Source of the DNA: an uncultured Desulfatiglans sp.
GTDB lineage: Bacteria; Desulfobacterota; DSM-4660; Desulfatiglandales; Desulfatiglandaceae
Length of the DNA: 64,000 nt
Assembly: GCA_900498135.1 (NCBI GenBank)
Contig: LR026961.1
Span: forward strand, 3,016,192 to 3,080,191
Direction of reading: 5' to 3'
Below the pieces are notes generated by a model. That model searched no databases, was not told the DNA's origin, and saw only the letters and a program-made list of their open reading frames with translations. A program made the translations under genes and the position numbers. Positions 31,818-63,170 of the stretch are shown here, piece after piece; the stretch's first letter is position 1; the number at the start of each line of letters is the position of its first letter.

Positions 31818-32096
31818 GCTTCCATGCGGAAGCGATTTCCCGGTAGTAGCCGGATATCGATTCCGAATGAGGGATTTTTCTTTACACTCTCTTCGGGTGC
31901 TCAGTCCTACCACTGCGCAGCGGGTTCCGGTTTCTTCACACCCTTCGGGTGCTCAGTCCCACCGCTTCGCGGCGGGTCCCAGTTTGACAATATGAATGAA
32001 ATTAATCGCTTGTGCCGATGTGACTCTGGATCGCTGCACAAGTAAACGCGCAGATCGAAGCTCAGATGGACCGCAAGGCCATTTCCGGATGAAAAC
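31818..32096 (+). repeat. MITE-like dispersed repeat, long form
   Basis: A plus-oriented long copy, mildly diverged. It has two tandem modules of about 50 bases with CCTTCGGGTGCTCAGTCC and CCGCTTCGCGGCGGG hairpins, then a degraded core (AATATGAATGAAATTAATCG) and a right end CATTTCCGGATGAAA. It finishes 47 bases before the thrC start; an open frame through the element is continuous with thrC. Confidence 0.82.
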
Positions 32097-33780: not shown

Positions 33781-35082
33781 ATGGAGCCGATTGCTATTAA
33801 CCGTAAGGAGGGCAAACTTAGGGTCGCCCCCGAGTGGGCGGACGTTTGCTTTACCTGTGGGACCTGCGCCGGCGGTTGCCCGGTGACCGGCGTCGACGGA
33901 ATGGACCCCAGGAAAGCCGTGCGCATGGCCGCCCTCGGGCTGGATCAGGAGCTGATCGACTCGCGGTTTCCCTGGGTCTGCACGCTCTGTGGCCGCTGCG
34001 AATACGCCTGTCCGCAAGGGGTGGAGATCCTCAAGATGATGCGCCGCGCCCGGACCCTGCGCGCGAGGGACAAGGTCCCCGGCCCGATCCACAAGGGCGT
34101 CGTGATGGATCTGGAAAGGGGGAACAACCTGGGCATCCCGAAGGAGGATTTCCTCTTTCTGCTGGCGGATCTGGGGCGGGAAATGGACGAGGACGAGGGC
34201 TTCCCGGGGTTCTATGTCCCCGTGGACAAGAAGGGCGCCAACGTCTTCGTGACGATCAATTCGAAGGAGCCTTTCGGCGAACCGGATGACATGAAGTTCT
34301 GGTGGAGGATCTTCTATGCCGCCAAGGAGGACTGGACCACCGCCTCGACCGAGTGGGAAGGGGTCAACTGGGCTCTTTTCTCAGGCGACGACGAATCCAT
34401 GAAGGCGTTGGTGGGACGGATCGTCAACCACATGGAGCGCCTGGAGTGCAAGACGCTCCTGTTGCCGGAATGAGGCCACGCCTACTATGCGACCAGGCTT
34501 GGTCTGCAAACGTGGTACCCTGAAGTCTTTGAAAAGTACAAGGTGGTTTCCGTCCACGATCTTCTGAAGGAATACATCGAAACGGGGCGGATCAAACTCG
34601 ACAAGTCGATCCACCACGAGCTGACGACGATCCACGACCCCTGCAACTACGGCCGGAAGAGCCAGAAGGCCTTCGGGCACGGCTATTTCGAGGAGCCCCG
34701 CTGGATCACCCAGCAGTGCTGCGAGAACTTCGTCGAGATGCAGCCGAACCGGATGAACAACTTCTGCTGCGGAGCCGGCGGCGGCGCTTGGGCGATGCCC
34801 TACGAGAACGAGCGGATTTATTACGGCCGCGTCAAGGCGCAGCAGATCCGGGACACCGGGGCGGAGCTGGTGATCGCGCCGTGCCATAACTGCCGGGATC
34901 AGATTATGAAGTCCCTGACCAAGGAATACGATCTGGGGATCGAGACCAAGTACCTTTGGGAGCTGGTGGCCGATTCGCTGATCGTGGAGCCGTGGAGCGA
35001 AGAAGAGATCGAGCAGGCCCGGGCGCTGCGGGATGAGCAGTTCGAGCGGGACGGCATCGATCTCGAAGCGGAGATGTACTAG
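33781..35082 (+). CDS. Selenocysteine-containing HdrD-like Fe-S oxidoreductase (in-frame UGA)
   Basis: One 433-residue gene interrupted by UGA at 34471-34473, best read as selenocysteine 231 (LLLPE-U-GHAYYATR). The Cys version of the same protein is encoded at 57400-58722 (MIMPDCGGGSYGCREG aligns). N-terminal clusters: C23/C26/C29/C33 (CFTCGTCAGGCP) and C67/C70/C73/C77 (CTLCGRCEYACP). The C-terminal half has a CCG-type motif (HDPCNYGRK, NNFCCGAGGGAW, CHNCRDQI) as in heterodisulfide reductase HdrD and DsrK. The frame remains open with normal codons for 203 residues past the UGA. AGGAGGG precedes the ATG. The electron partner is unknown; no cytochrome b subunit is adjacent. Confidence 0.92.
34474..34520 (+). 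promoter_or_regulatory. Putative bacterial SECIS element
   Basis: Immediately after the UGA, GGCCACG/CGTGGT-type outer pairing (CCACG at about 34476-34480 with CGTGG at 34511-34515) encloses an inner stem GACCA (34491-34495) and TGGTC (34500-34504) with a GGCT loop. The apical loop lies about 22 bases past the UGA, the distance SelB needs. Confidence 0.75.
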
Positions 35083-36414: not shown

Positions 36415-37617
36415 CTACAAGTCGACGGTGAAGGTGTCCGTTTCCTCGTTCCAGGTAGCGACTACGAAATAGACGAAGAGAAACACCAGCAACAGGATGA
36501 CGGTCCACCGGTACGTCAGGAAATCAGGCAGGAAAACGCGGTGGCCCATGAGTTTGTTCAGGCCCTCCGATGTCATCATCCAAAGCTTGAAAAGCGAGGT
36601 CGAGAGCGCAAAGAAGACCACGGCGATCATGAGCTTGATCTGGCCTTCACCGGCGCGCCAGACCGAGCCGCTGCCGCAGCCGCCCGCCACCACCATGCCG
36701 ACGCCGAAGATGATGCCGCCCACGAGGCCCCCGAACCAGAAGGCCTGAGGCACGTAGACCGATTCCTCCCGCAGGCCGGTCCACTTGAGGGCCGCAAAGC
36801 CGATGACGCTGATCATGAGGCTCAGGGCGATGGCACGCGCCACCTCTCCTTCGCCCGTCATGAAGGGGTCTCTGAAGCCGCGCACGAAGCAGAAACGGCA
36901 GCGTTGAATGATGATTCCAAAAGCCAGCCCGCACAGGAGCAGGCCCCCCTCGCGGGTAAGAGCCTCACGGCTGTAAGCGATGGATGCAGCAACCGCTCCG
37001 ATGAGCACCAGGACCCCCAGGTAGGGGGAGAGATCGCGCAGATGGAGTCCGCCTTTATCCCCCTCGCCGGCCGGCGCGTGTCCGCTCGAGCCCGAGGGCA
37101 GGTGCTCCAACTCCCAGTAAAGGTATCGTATCCCCAGGTAGGCGCCGATGAAGAGCCCGATCATCATGGCAAGGCCGCTCAGCGACAGCGCGCTCAGGGC
37201 GGTGTAAAAGCCGCCTACATTGCACCCGCCTGCCATGGCGGCCCCCACGCCCATGAGGATGCCTCCGACGACGCCTTTGGCCAGTTCGAGCGGGGGGGCC
37301 ATCCGCAGGGCGAACTGTTTCGAGAGGAGCGCCGATGCGAAGGCACCCCATAAAAGCCCTACGGTCAGGATGGAGTTGGTGGAGGTGACGGGGGAGGCAG
37401 TGGGGAAGGGATAGATGCCTACGGCACTGAAAAACCAGTCGCCCCAGTTGCGGAGTCCGCCTGCCACCCCCCAGGGCCTGGCCCAGGCAAAGGTGATGAC
37501 GCTCATGAGCCCGATAAGCACTCCGCCCAGCCAGATAGGCCAGTTTTCGTAAAAAACGGCATGGTAGCCTCGCCTCAAAATGCCGACAAGAACCGGGTTT
37601 CCTCTCTCCTCGCTCAT
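36415..37617 (-). CDS. yedE: YeeE/YedE-family membrane transporter
   Basis: A 400-residue inner-membrane protein with about ten hydrophobic segments and internal duplication. The conserved thiol motifs of YeeE/YedE are present: MAGGCNVGGFYTAL, QRCRFCFVRGFRDP and VAGGCGSGSVWRAGEG. Relatives import thiosulfate (TsuA) or are associated with selenium metabolism (YedE/FdhT). A TusA-like gene directly downstream supports coupled uptake and transfer. Substrate is not determined by the sequence. Confidence 0.9.
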   Translation of the reverse strand: MSEERGNPVLVGILRRGYHAVFYENWPIWLGGVLIGLMSVITFAWARPWGVAGGLRNWGDWFFSAVGIYPFPTASPVTSTNSILTVGLLWGAFASALLSKQFALRMAPPLELAKGVVGGILMGVGAAMAGGCNVGGFYTALSALSLSGLAMMIGLFIGAYLGIRYLYWELEHLPSGSSGHAPAGEGDKGGLHLRDLSPYLGVLVLIGAVAASIAYSREALTREGGLLLCGLAFGIIIQRCRFCFVRGFRDPFMTGEGEVARAIALSLMISVIGFAALKWTGLREESVYVPQAFWFGGLVGGIIFGVGMVVAGGCGSGSVWRAGEGQIKLMIAVVFFALSTSLFKLWMMTSEGLNKLMGHRVFLPDFLTYRWTVILLLVFLFVYFVVATWNEETDTFTVDL

Positions 37618-42257: not shown

Positions 42258-42857
42258 TCAGATGTTGATGACCGAATCGGCCAGCTGCATGGCGGTGACG
42301 ATATCGAGCATGTTGGTGGTTTCGCCCACCTCCTTTTCCTGCAGCAGGTCGAAATGCGTCAGACACGTCCCGCAGACCAGGATCGTGATTCCCGCGGCCT
42401 CGAGCTCCTTGAGCAAAGGAAGAACGGCCGATCCCCTTACGGTCATCTTGACGCCGTTGTTGACGAAAACGAGGCGCCAGAGTTCTCCGCCCATCTCCTT
42501 GAGGGTCTTCAAAAAGCTCACCATCAGCTTGGCGCCCAGTTCGTCGTCGCCATGACCCATCTTGTCGTGGGTGACCATCACCATGATCTTCCGCGTCTCT
42601 TCACGGCTGGGTGCATCCGGTGCGGGGGCGGCCTCCGCGTCCCCGGACTTTCGGCCCTCGACACGAATATGCCGCTCTTCCTCCACAGTGGAAACCGTGA
42701 AGCCTTGCGTGCGCAGAAACCGGGAGACGTTTTCCCGGGAGGCTTCACCATCGACGAGGACGGCGACGTCGCGGGACGGGTTTTTTTCGAGCCATTCCTT
42801 GGTCTGGAGAACCGGGGCAGGGCAGGCCAATCCGCGGCAATCGATTTCGTGGGTCAT
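42258..42857 (-). CDS. yedF: Selenium-metabolism sulfurtransferase-like protein YedF
   Basis: A 199-residue protein with a TusA-like N-terminal domain (IDCRGLACPAPVLQTKEWL, Cys 7 and 12) and a DsrE-like C-terminal domain (MVMVTHDKMGHGDDELG, RLVFVNNGVKMTVRGS, ITILVCGTCLTHFDLL). This two-domain layout is the YedF family that co-occurs with SelD in selenium-using bacteria. AGGAG lies upstream. It follows selD on the same strand with a 189-base gap. It may carry selenide or sulfide to SelD. Confidence 0.93.
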   Translation of the reverse strand: MTHEIDCRGLACPAPVLQTKEWLEKNPSRDVAVLVDGEASRENVSRFLRTQGFTVSTVEEERHIRVEGRKSGDAEAAPAPDAPSREETRKIMVMVTHDKMGHGDDELGAKLMVSFLKTLKEMGGELWRLVFVNNGVKMTVRGSAVLPLLKELEAAGITILVCGTCLTHFDLLQEKEVGETTNMLDIVTAMQLADSVINI

Positions 42858-43046: not shown

Positions 43047-44099
43047 TCAGGACGCCTCCACGACGATGCGGCCGACAGGCTCTGGAACGATCTCGCCCAC
43101 GAGCGCCGCGCAATCCACCCCTTCCTGGAGGAGTGCGGAGGCCAATTCCTCAGCCGGGCCGGCCGGTGCTGATATCAGCAACCCGCCCGACGTCTGCGGA
43201 TCGAAGAGCAGATCCGACAGTACGGGGTCCAGCTCGGAAAGCCCATCGACCATGCAGGCCCTGAACGCTTTGTTGCGATAGGCGCCCGCCGGGAAGAGGC
43301 CCATGCTTCCGTATTCGATCGCCTCCGGCAGGATGGGGATGCGGGAGGCTTGCACGACGGCGCCGAACCCGGATCCTTCGACCATCTCGGCCAGGTGCCC
43401 CAGGAAACCGAACCCCGTGATGTCCGTGCAGGCATGGACGGGGTAATGCGCCATGACCTCCGCCGCCTTGCGGTTCAGCGTAGCCATCAGGCGGGTCACG
43501 CGCTCGACCAGTTCCGGCGGCGCCATATCGGCTTTGATGGCCGTATTGATGACCCCGGTCCCCAGGGGCTTCGTCAGGATCAGCCGGTCGCCCGGGCGGA
43601 GGTTCTTCTTGGTGAGCACCCGGTCGGGGTGGATGAAGCCCGTGACGGAAAGGCCGTATTTGAGCTCCTTGTCCTCGACACTGTGCCCGCCTATCAGCAC
43701 GACTTCCGCCTCCCGCAGCTTGGCGATTCCGCCCTCGATCACGCTCCGGAAGACGGACAGGTCCATTTCCTTGAGGGGAAATGCCACCAGATTCATGGCG
43801 GTTTTGGGCACACCCCCCATGGCGTAGACATCGCTCAGGGCGTTGGCCGCTGCGATCTGACCGAACCAGTAAGGGTCATCGACGATCGGGGTGAAGAAAT
43901 CGACGGTCTGTATCAGCGCCAGCTGGTCGGAGACCTTGTAAACCCCGGCATCGTCCGCCTTCTCGAGCCCCACCAGTACGTTTTCGTCCGTCGGGAACAC
44001 GATTCCGCAAAGCGCCTGCTCCAGGTCCCCTGGAGGAAGTTTCGAGGCTCAACCGGACCCCGAGACGGTTTCCGTCAACCTGCGGGTTGTGTTTTCCAT
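43047..44099 (-). CDS. selD: Selenophosphate synthetase, selenocysteine form (in-frame UGA)
   Basis: A 350-residue SelD that makes selenophosphate from selenide and ATP. Reading from ATG at 44099 gives MENTTRRLTETVSGSG-U-ASK, with UGA at 44049-44051 as residue 17, exactly where SelD has its catalytic Cys or Sec (usual form LT...G-C/U-xxK). The remaining part is classical: TVDFFTPIVDDPYWFGQIAA, GGHSVEDKELKYGLSVTG, CTDITGFGFLGHL, DPQTSGGLL. A gene call starting at the GTG at 44000 loses this active-site loop. Directly upstream of yedF. Confidence 0.94.
44014..44048 (-). promoter_or_regulatory. Putative SECIS element of selD
   Basis: On the minus strand, directly after the UGA, GCCT (44045-44048) pairs with AGGC (44014-44017), and an inner perfect stem CTCCAG/CTGGAG (within 44019-44035) carries a short GGGAC loop. 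Spacing from UGA to the apical loop (about 20 bases) fits a bacterial SECIS. Confidence 0.8.
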
Positions 44100-44223
44100 G
44101 GCGATCGGCATCCTCGTCCTTTTCGGCCGGAAAGGGTCGTTCGTGCTTTAGGCGTTATACCCCACCGTTCTCGAAGGGGCCTGCTGGCGGGGGAACTCGC
44201 AGAAAGGCCCCTGCCTGCTACCT

Positions 44224-44469
44224 CGTTTCCATCCGGAAATGAGAATTTTTCTTCACAATCTGTGCATGCTCAGTCCCACCGCTTCGCGGCGGGTCCCGGT
44301 TTCTTTACACCCTTCGGGTGCTCAGTCCCACCGCTTCGCGGCGGGTCCCGGTTTGACCAATATCAAGGAAATCAAGTACTTGTGCAGAGTCGACCTCCAG
44401 ATCGCCGCACAAGCAAACGTGCGGATTGACGCCGAGATTGGCCAAAAAGACTATTACCGGATGGAAACG
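44224..44469 (+). repeat. MITE-like dispersed repeat, long form
   Basis: The best-preserved long copy. Its ends CGTTTCCATCCGGAAATG and CATTTCCGGATGGAAACG are perfect 17-18-base inverted repeats. Two hairpin modules (CCGCTTCGCGGCGGG twice and ACCCTTCGGGTGCT) precede the core, which carries the sequence GACCTCCAGATCG where other copies have a perfect palindrome. It lies in the gap between selD and the HIT gene. Confidence 0.9.
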
Positions 44470-51884: not shown

Positions 51885-52730
51885 CTATTGCCAGAACGGG
51901 AACAGGTGGTGCACCGGTCCATGGCCCTTTCCCAGGCGGTAGGGGACGCCGGCGCGGATGGCGGCGTGGATGTATTCTTTGGCCTTCCGGACGGCCTCCG
52001 GGATGTCGAGTCCGTGGGCCAGGTACGCAGCCGCTGCGGCTGAGAGCGTGCAGCCTGTCCCGTGGTTGTTCCGGGTGTCGATGCGCGGGGCCTTGAGTTC
52101 GACGAAGCGGTCTTCCTGCTTCAGATACAGGATATCGTTGCTTTCCGGATCGTTTTCGAGATGGCCCGCCTTCAGCAGAACGGCGGCACTGCCGAATGCA
52201 GAAAGGGATCGGGCGGCGGACCGCAGGTCTTTCAATTCTCCATGCTCCGCTCCGAGCAGCACCGCTGCTTCCGGAAGGTTGGGAGTGATGATGTCGGCCA
52301 GCGGGATAAGCAGTTCCTTGAAGGCCTCCACTGCATCGCCGCGGAGGAGCCGGTGCCCGCTTTGGGAGATCATCACGGTATCCAGGACGATCCGGCGTGC
52401 ACCATGCTTTTGCAGTCGGCCTGCTACAGCGGCGATCAACTCGGCCGAGTAGAGCATGCCGATCTTGACCGCATCGGCGCCCATGTCGCTGAAGACCGCC
52501 TCCAGTTGATCCTCCACGAATGCGGCGGGAACGGGGTGTATATCCGTCACCCCGAGGGTGTTCTGGGCCGTCAGGGCGGTAATGGCCGACATGCCGTAGC
52601 AGCCGAGGGCCGCAAAGGTCTTGAGATCTGCCTGGATGCCGGCGCCGCCGCCGCTGTCGGAGCCGGCTATGGTCAGCGCCTTGCGGTAACTGCGCGGGGC
52701 GGTGTTAGAATCCGCCGGGATGGTTGCCAT
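51885..52730 (-). CDS. thiD: Hydroxymethylpyrimidine/phosphomethylpyrimidine kinase
   Basis: A 281-residue kinase: LTIAGSDSGGGAGIQADLKT, MSAITALTAQNTLGV, and the anion-hole motif NNHGTGCTLSAA are diagnostic. It makes HMP pyrophosphate, the pyrimidine half of thiamine. The start at 52730 lies inside the end of thiL (26-base overlap). Last gene of the thiM-thiE-thiL-thiD operon. Confidence 0.96.
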   Translation of the reverse strand: MATIPADSNTAPRSYRKALTIAGSDSGGGAGIQADLKTFAALGCYGMSAITALTAQNTLGVTDIHPVPAAFVEDQLEAVFSDMGADAVKIGMLYSAELIAAVAGRLQKHGARRIVLDTVMISQSGHRLLRGDAVEAFKELLIPLADIITPNLPEAAVLLGAEHGELKDLRSAARSLSAFGSAAVLLKAGHLENDPESNDILYLKQEDRFVELKAPRIDTRNNHGTGCTLSAAAAAYLAHGLDIPEAVRKAKEYIHAAIRAGVPYRLGKGHGPVHHLFPFWQ

Positions 52731-53745
52731 GGGGGTCGCCTGCCTGAAAGTGGTTCCAGCCTGATGCCGTAAAGGGGATGATCCGGCCCTCACGGGTTTC
52801 GATTTCGAGACGTCCGGAGCTGTTCATCCGGCCGATGGGGTAAAGGATGCGGCCGAAGAGGCGGCGGTATTCTTTCGCCAGATCCTCAGCCCTGGCAGGG
52901 TCCACGGTGCAGACGAGAACGTAGTCCTCGCCGCCTGCAAGGGCGAAGTCGACCGGGTCGAAGCCGAAGCGTTTGCAGAAGGCCGGGAGATGGTCCGAAA
53001 AGGGGATTTTCGCCGCCGAAAGCAGCACTCCGAGGCCGCTCGCCTCCGCAATATGCCCGAGGTCCGAACTGAGCCCGTCGCTGACATCGATGGCCGCGTG
53101 CACGCCGCCAGCGCCTGCGAGGAACCTTCCTTCATGGATATGAGGGCGCGGCCTCAGATGGGCCTCGATCAGGCCCCGGTCCATTGGCGATTCCGGGGCC
53201 GCCTCCTGCAGGATGAGGTGCAGCCCGGCGCGGCTGTCTCCGAGCGGGCCGGTGATGAAAACGATGTCGCCTGTCCTGGCGGTGTGGCGAAAGAGGATCT
53301 CCGCTTCCGGCACCTCTCCCGTCACGGCGACGTTGATGACCAGATCCCGGCGCGAACCGGTGGTGTCACCCCCGAGGATATTGACGGAAAAGGCCTGGGC
53401 CAGGGATTTCATGCCGTCATAGAGGTGGTCGAGGTAGTCGAGCGGCACCTCTTCAGGGATGGCGATGCTTACGAAGGCCTCCCGCGGGGTTCCTCCCATC
53501 GCGGCGATGTCGCTCAAGTTGACGGCCAGAGATTTGTACCCGAGGTCGAAACCGCTGATCCGGTCACGGATGAAGTGGACCCGTTCGACCAGCAGGTCGG
53601 TGGTCAGCAGGGTGATCCGCCCCTCCGCCGTTCGGAAGGCCGCCGCATCGTCGCCGATGCCTTTGAGGACTCCGTCCGGACGGACGAGGCACCCCTGGGT
53701 CACTCTGCGGATGAATCCGAACTCGCCGATCTCTTTCAGCCCCAT
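52705..53745 (-). CDS. thiL: Thiamine-monophosphate kinase
   Basis: A 346-residue ThiL that phosphorylates thiamine monophosphate to the active diphosphate. It has the IGDDAAAF Mg-binding motif, NLSDIAAMGGTPREAF, GGDTTGSRRDLVINV and IDVSDGLSSDLGHIAE of the PurM-like fold. It overlaps thiE by ten bases. Confidence 0.96.
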   Translation of the reverse strand: MGLKEIGEFGFIRRVTQGCLVRPDGVLKGIGDDAAAFRTAEGRITLLTTDLLVERVHFIRDRISGFDLGYKSLAVNLSDIAAMGGTPREAFVSIAIPEEVPLDYLDHLYDGMKSLAQAFSVNILGGDTTGSRRDLVINVAVTGEVPEAEILFRHTARTGDIVFITGPLGDSRAGLHLILQEAAPESPMDRGLIEAHLRPRPHIHEGRFLAGAGGVHAAIDVSDGLSSDLGHIAEASGLGVLLSAAKIPFSDHLPAFCKRFGFDPVDFALAGGEDYVLVCTVDPARAEDLAKEYRRLFGRILYPIGRMNSSGRLEIETREGRIIPFTASGWNHFQAGDPHGNHPGGF

Positions 53746-54386
53746 TGCGCCTTAGCCCTTTCGATCGCCGCCCGAAGTTGTCTGGCGGCCGCCTCGGGGT
53801 CTTCTGCGGATACGATGGCGGAAACGACCGCCAGGCCGCTCCCGCCGTGCCGGATGACCTCGGCGGCGTTTTCGAGGTTGAGACCCCCGATGCCGATCAG
53901 CGGCAGCCGGACAGCCGCCCGGATCGCCGCGAGCCCGGAGAGTCCAAGGGCGGGGGCGGTGTCCGTCTTGGTCGGGGTGGTGAAGATAGGGCTTACCCCG
54001 ATGTAATCCGCGCCCTCCGCTTCCGCCCGGAGGGCGTCGTCCAGGCTTTCCGCGGAGATTCCGATAAGAGCCTTGTCCCCGAGGATCGCTCTTGCCTGCG
54101 GAAGCGGCATGTCGGTCTGACCGAGGTGGACCCCGTCGGCCTCGACGGCCAGAGCCACATCCACGCGATCGTTGATGATGAGGGGGATGCCGTTTTCATG
54201 CAGGAGGCTCCGCAGAACGAGCGCCTCCTCGATGAAGGTGCGGGTGGAGCAGGCCTTCTCCCTCAGCTGGACGCAGGTCACTCCTCCTCTGACGGCGGCC
54301 TCCACTATGGCTCGCGTCGGACGTCCGCGGGCGAGGCTGCGGTCCGTGACGAGGTACAAGGAATAATCGATCTGTTTGATCTGCAT
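53736..54386 (-). CDS. thiE: Thiamine phosphate synthase
   Basis: A 216-residue TIM-barrel enzyme joining HMP-PP and thiazole phosphate. VTCVQLREKACSTRTF, IPLIINDRVDVALAVEADGVHLGQTDM, YIGVSPIFTTPTKTD and IGIGGLNLENAAEV are the classical motifs, with the pyrophosphate- and thiazole-binding residues intact. It lies 148 bases after thiM. Confidence 0.97.
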   Translation of the reverse strand: MQIKQIDYSLYLVTDRSLARGRPTRAIVEAAVRGGVTCVQLREKACSTRTFIEEALVLRSLLHENGIPLIINDRVDVALAVEADGVHLGQTDMPLPQARAILGDKALIGISAESLDDALRAEAEGADYIGVSPIFTTPTKTDTAPALGLSGLAAIRAAVRLPLIGIGGLNLENAAEVIRHGGSGLAVVSAIVSAEDPEAAARQLRAAIERAKAQWG

Positions 54387-55404: not shown

Positions 55405-55439
55405 CTCCTGGTCCATCCAAATGAATGGAGCCTTCCTTC

Positions 55440-55510
55440 TTATCCCTACGCTGGCATGACCCAGATCAGGTTCAACGGGTATAATCTCAGGCCTTTAAGG
55501 CCACCCCGAA
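55440..55510 (-). promoter_or_regulatory. TPP riboswitch (THI element)
   Basis: Minus strand reads GGGGUGGCC, then CUGAGAUUAUACCCGU, GAACCUGAUCUGGGUCAUGCC and AGCGUAGGG, the conserved aptamer of the thiamine pyrophosphate riboswitch. It lies upstream of thiM and the terminator at 55372, so TPP should cause premature termination of thiM-thiE-thiL-thiD. Confidence 0.97.
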
Positions 55511-55665
55511 ATCTGATTTTTCACAATTTATCCTTCATTTTAAAGAGGCGATACCGGGCTGTCAAGAGGGAGGTTCGATGCGGAACTGAAAAACCGATGG
55601 TGCTGAGCCAGGCTGTGGAGAAAGCTATGCGCCGACAGGGAACGTCCGGTTCGTGGGCGAGGCGT

Positions 55666-62976: not shown

Positions 62977-63170
62977 CGTTTCCATCCGGAAATGGTCTTT
63001 TTGGCCAATCTCGGTGTCAATCTGAACGTTTGCTTGCGCGGCGACCACCAGGTCGCCTCCGTACAAACACTTGATTTCCCTGATATTGGTCAAACCCGGA
63101 CCCGCCGCGAAGCGGTGGGACTGAGCACGCGAAGCGTGTGAAGAAAATTCCTCATTTCCGGATTGGAAAC
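62977..63170 (-). repeat. MITE-like dispersed repeat
   Basis: A minus-oriented copy with CGTTTCCATCCGGAAATGG at its left, the core with TTGGCCAATCTC, GGCGACCACCAGGTCGCC in the palindrome position, one hairpin module and right end CATTTCCGGATTGGAAAC. It lies just downstream of the asparagine synthetase gene. Confidence 0.88.

Follow-up and report, generated by a model that had tools for sequence, protein, structure and literature searches.

A predicted selenocysteine-containing SelD in an uncultured Desulfatiglans sp. and the comparative evidence for its SECIS hairpin

The window analysed here, a stretch of 64,000 nt from the genome of an uncultured Desulfatiglans sp., holds a selD coding sequence on its minus strand (43047–44099), which comprises 350 amino acids plus a terminal TGA and has a predicted selenocysteine (Sec) at residue 17. 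Translated with UGA as Sec, 44099–43047 yields a product beginning with MENTTRRLTETVSGSGUASKLPPGDLEQALCGIVFPTDENV. The in-frame UGA at 44049–44051 (minus strand) falls on the catalytic Cys/Sec site, residue 17, which is Cys17 in E. coli SelD. The TIGR00476 model (SelD equivalog) scores 375.6 bits over residues 7–312 (cut-off 125), almost the entire product can be aligned with solved bacterial SelD structures, and the catalytic loop G-[C/U]-x-x-K is found as GSGUASK, with U17 and K20. These matches support the identification of the product as selenide, water dikinase, SelD, for which selenophosphate synthesis is predicted.

The initial annotation had described this gene as a SelD with Sec at residue 17 that is mis-started at a GTG, and both points hold. 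If the UGA is taken as a stop, as in the standard code, the frame begins no earlier than GTG 44000 (43998–44000, minus strand); this start is an artefact of that reading, and the first 33 residues including the active-site loop are missing. Reading from ATG 44099 restores the loop with the UGA at the catalytic site, as had been claimed, and the coordinates given for it were correct.

Two in-frame ATG codons may serve as the start. The likely one, at 44097–44099 (minus strand), aligns without gaps to the start of E. coli SelD and reproduces its distance from the start to residue 17. The other one (44109–44111, minus strand) lies 12 nt further upstream and would add four residues, so that the product begins with MPIAMENTT; it has an AGGA 5 nt upstream (44120–44117) and is kept in the nearest relative, a congener. 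Many homologues have a Met about 15–18 residues ahead of the Sec. We prefer ATG 44099 over ATG 44111.

The UGA itself is conserved far beyond this genome. GTDB species genomes were scanned and the best 80 related loci retained; the residue-17 codon is TGA in all 77 loci of this set that were readable by pattern, from which one spurious pattern match (L083) had been left out. When the site was placed by tblastn in all related loci (n = 128, overlapping the 77-locus set and holding 116 distinct sequences), 126 had TGA, one had TGC (Cys) and one was masked. Furthermore, 148 genomes sampled from the phylum gave 138 SelD matches spanning residue 17, and 135 of these have an in-frame TGA. The SelD of the congener is 93% identical and likewise has the TGA.

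These data bear directly on one alternative, namely a broken selD whose UGA arose by nonsense mutation or by a sequencing error and from which either a short protein, starting at GTG 44000, or none at all is made. It is true that a conventional ORF call yields exactly the frame from GTG 44000. However, the identical TGA occurs in nearly all relatives and in independent assemblies, including that of the congener, which all but rules out both a sequencing error and a local nonsense mutation. The short form would also lack the invariant L8, T9, G16, position 17 and K20, and the genome encodes a Sec machinery (see below). We regard a broken gene as having next to no probability.

Shortly 3' of the UGA, a core hairpin of the bacterial SECIS type, CUCCAGG-GGA-CCUGGAG, is located at 44019–44035 (minus strand). 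It has 7 bp, a loop GGA at 44028–44026 and a distance of 20 nt from the UGA to the loop. The published bSECIS rules ask for a loop of 3–9 nt, a stem of 4–16 bp, 16–37 nt from the UGA, a G within the first two loop positions and a minimum free energy of at most -7.5 (PMC13188914). The selD hairpin, with its GGA loop, a stem of 7 bp, a spacing of 20 nt and an energy of -16.6 kcal/mol for a 45-nt segment, agrees with these rules, as do 111 of the 116 distinct sequences. Folding energy adds little to this. The 45-nt stretch 44054–44010 reaches -13.9 kcal/mol, which is no better than shuffles (z 0.29); among 2000 synonymous resamples 34 fold as well as or better than the selD hairpin, a result that is only suggestive; and when the in-frame UGAs of the window are ranked by fold energy, the SelD site is 22nd of 153, so that this ranking does not discriminate. 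Rfam gave no match at the SECIS site.

The comparison of codons and pairs among relatives is more telling. In 78 Sec-SelD genes, the hairpin core uses GGG in 78 of 78 cases (25% elsewhere in those genes), CTG also in 78 of 78 (37% in the remainder), GAC for 77 of 77 Asp codons (36% elsewhere) and CCA in 69 of 78 (12.5% in the remainder). Across the 116 distinct sequences, which are related and not independent, 88% of the stem cells are paired, compared with 14–49% in slid registers. Compensatory changes are seen at one pair, 23–27, which is G-C in 102, A-U in 7 and G-U in 3 of these sequences. The outer pairs 17–33 and 18–32 are less well kept, so that the SECIS core effectively consists of the five inner pairs. 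The nearest Cys homologue (L110, 62% identical) retains the peptide KLPPGDL, but the codons GGC GAT replace GGG GAC, and its apical stem shrinks to 4 bp. Thus, as far as one close Cys homologue can tell, the constraint follows the use of Sec and not the peptide. The sequences show the hairpin to be constrained at the RNA level. Taken together, the comparative evidence, and not the energy, supports a real SECIS hairpin beyond chance. The initial annotation had spoken of a near-perfect SECIS hairpin at 44014–44048: the conserved core 44035–44019 does lie inside this segment, but near-perfect is too loose a term for a structure whose energy does not exceed that of shuffled sequences.

The genome, 4.8 Mb in a single contig, was examined for the Sec machinery, the absence of which the initial annotation had named beforehand as the point that would speak against it. 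A selA match (624.9 bits), a selB match (386.8 bits, open frame of 642 aa) and a tRNA-Sec with the anticodon UCA (71.7 bits) were all found, at three separate genomic places. These genes also bear on a second alternative, in which a suppressor tRNA, or a reassignment of the genetic code, would place Trp, Cys or some other amino acid at residue 17. The inserted residue cannot be read from the sequence alone, which leaves some room for such a decoding. On the other hand, selD has TGA as its own terminator, so that TGA serves as a stop too; SelA, SelB and the UCA tRNA-Sec are present; and the hairpin codons are constrained in Sec genes and relaxed in the Cys homologue. Such a decoding is thus very improbable, and decoding as Sec is the reading followed here.

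A second SelD of the Cys type was sought in the genome and none was found; SelD is single. The only other SelD-related match, at 52996–53655 of the window (28% identity), lies inside the frame 52705–53745 and was read as ThiL-like. In this part of the window, the frames at 51885–54386 read like ThiD, ThiL and ThiE, and a TPP riboswitch (71.3 bits) is located nearby at 55425–55518 on the minus strand.

It is almost certain, judged from the sequence, that the only selD of this genome encodes a selenoprotein, with SelB, Sec-tRNA(Sec) and the hairpin inserting Sec at residue 17. SelB carrying Sec-tRNA(Sec) would recognise the hairpin just 3' of UGA 44051–44049, and Sec would be inserted at this residue. 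U17 and Lys20 would then form the active site, at which selenide and ATP are converted into selenophosphate, and selenophosphate would pass via SelA to Sec-tRNA(Sec), closing a loop onto the synthesis of SelD. We infer the insertion of Sec and the enzyme activity from established knowledge of the family. Since the sole SelD is a predicted selenoprotein, its synthesis would require its own product, and this self-dependence is probably common to many relatives. That the read-through at residue 17 might act as a feedback switch, by which the selenium supply sets the Sec capacity of the whole cell, is a speculative and rather unlikely extension.

Several neighbouring genes fit a handling of sulphur or selenium. 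The next gene downstream of selD is yedF, coding for a sulfurtransferase-like selenium metabolism protein (42258–42857, minus strand; TIGR03527, 215.5 bits). A YedE/FdhT-like membrane protein at 37617–36415 matches its model below the cut-off, and a TusA domain is found at 36508–36059. Upstream of selD, at 44248–44351, lies a 52-nt element repeated in tandem, the core of which is the palindromic CCCACCGCTTCGCGGCGGG; the element occurs also at 31958–31977 and 63100–63119 and has at least 42 matches in the genome, with only 40 of 182 candidates scored. It folds far better than shuffles (z -6.1) and looks like a REP/BIME-type element; six matches to the Y1 transposase family occur in the genome. 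On the plus strand at 33781–35082, two frames join across UGA 34471–34473 (LLLPE-UGA-GHAYYATR) into a product of 433 aa with an Fe-S/CCG domain; its matches to the HmcF, TmcB and DsrK models stay under the respective cut-offs, and a hairpin lies 3' of this UGA. This is probably a second selenoprotein gene.

Sec-containing SelD of Deltaproteobacteria has been described since 2006, and SelD is tabulated as a selenoprotein for instance in Syntrophobacter, Syntrophus, Desulfotalea and Geobacter (PMC1794560); that selD itself contains Sec is also stated elsewhere (PMC8318568). The protein described here belongs to the same enzyme family and the same broad bacterial group and is likewise a predicted selenoprotein; it comes from another genome, and no functional or structural difference was found. 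Plasmid-borne SelDs served as wider controls, the E. coli one alone being used in detail. E. coli SelD (structure 3u0o) shares 41% identity, the catalytic loop, Lys20 and the start distance, and U17 and K20 fall without gaps on its invariant catalytic Cys and Lys. In contrast, its residue 17 is Cys and a SECIS-like core is missing, with an energy of -2.4 kcal/mol for the apical fold. The Sec-SelD found here is therefore ordinary for this group of anaerobes and a further case of a known type.

Existing knowledge of SelD is unchanged by this result, which corrects the annotation of one gene, selD, and shows, in a clean comparative case, how a SECIS hairpin restricts the choice among synonymous codons. 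For the organism, the decoding of UGA as selenocysteine is strongly implied, although to say that the gene independently proves it, as the initial annotation did, is too strong. Consequently, the other UGA-interrupted genes of the window merit the same reading.
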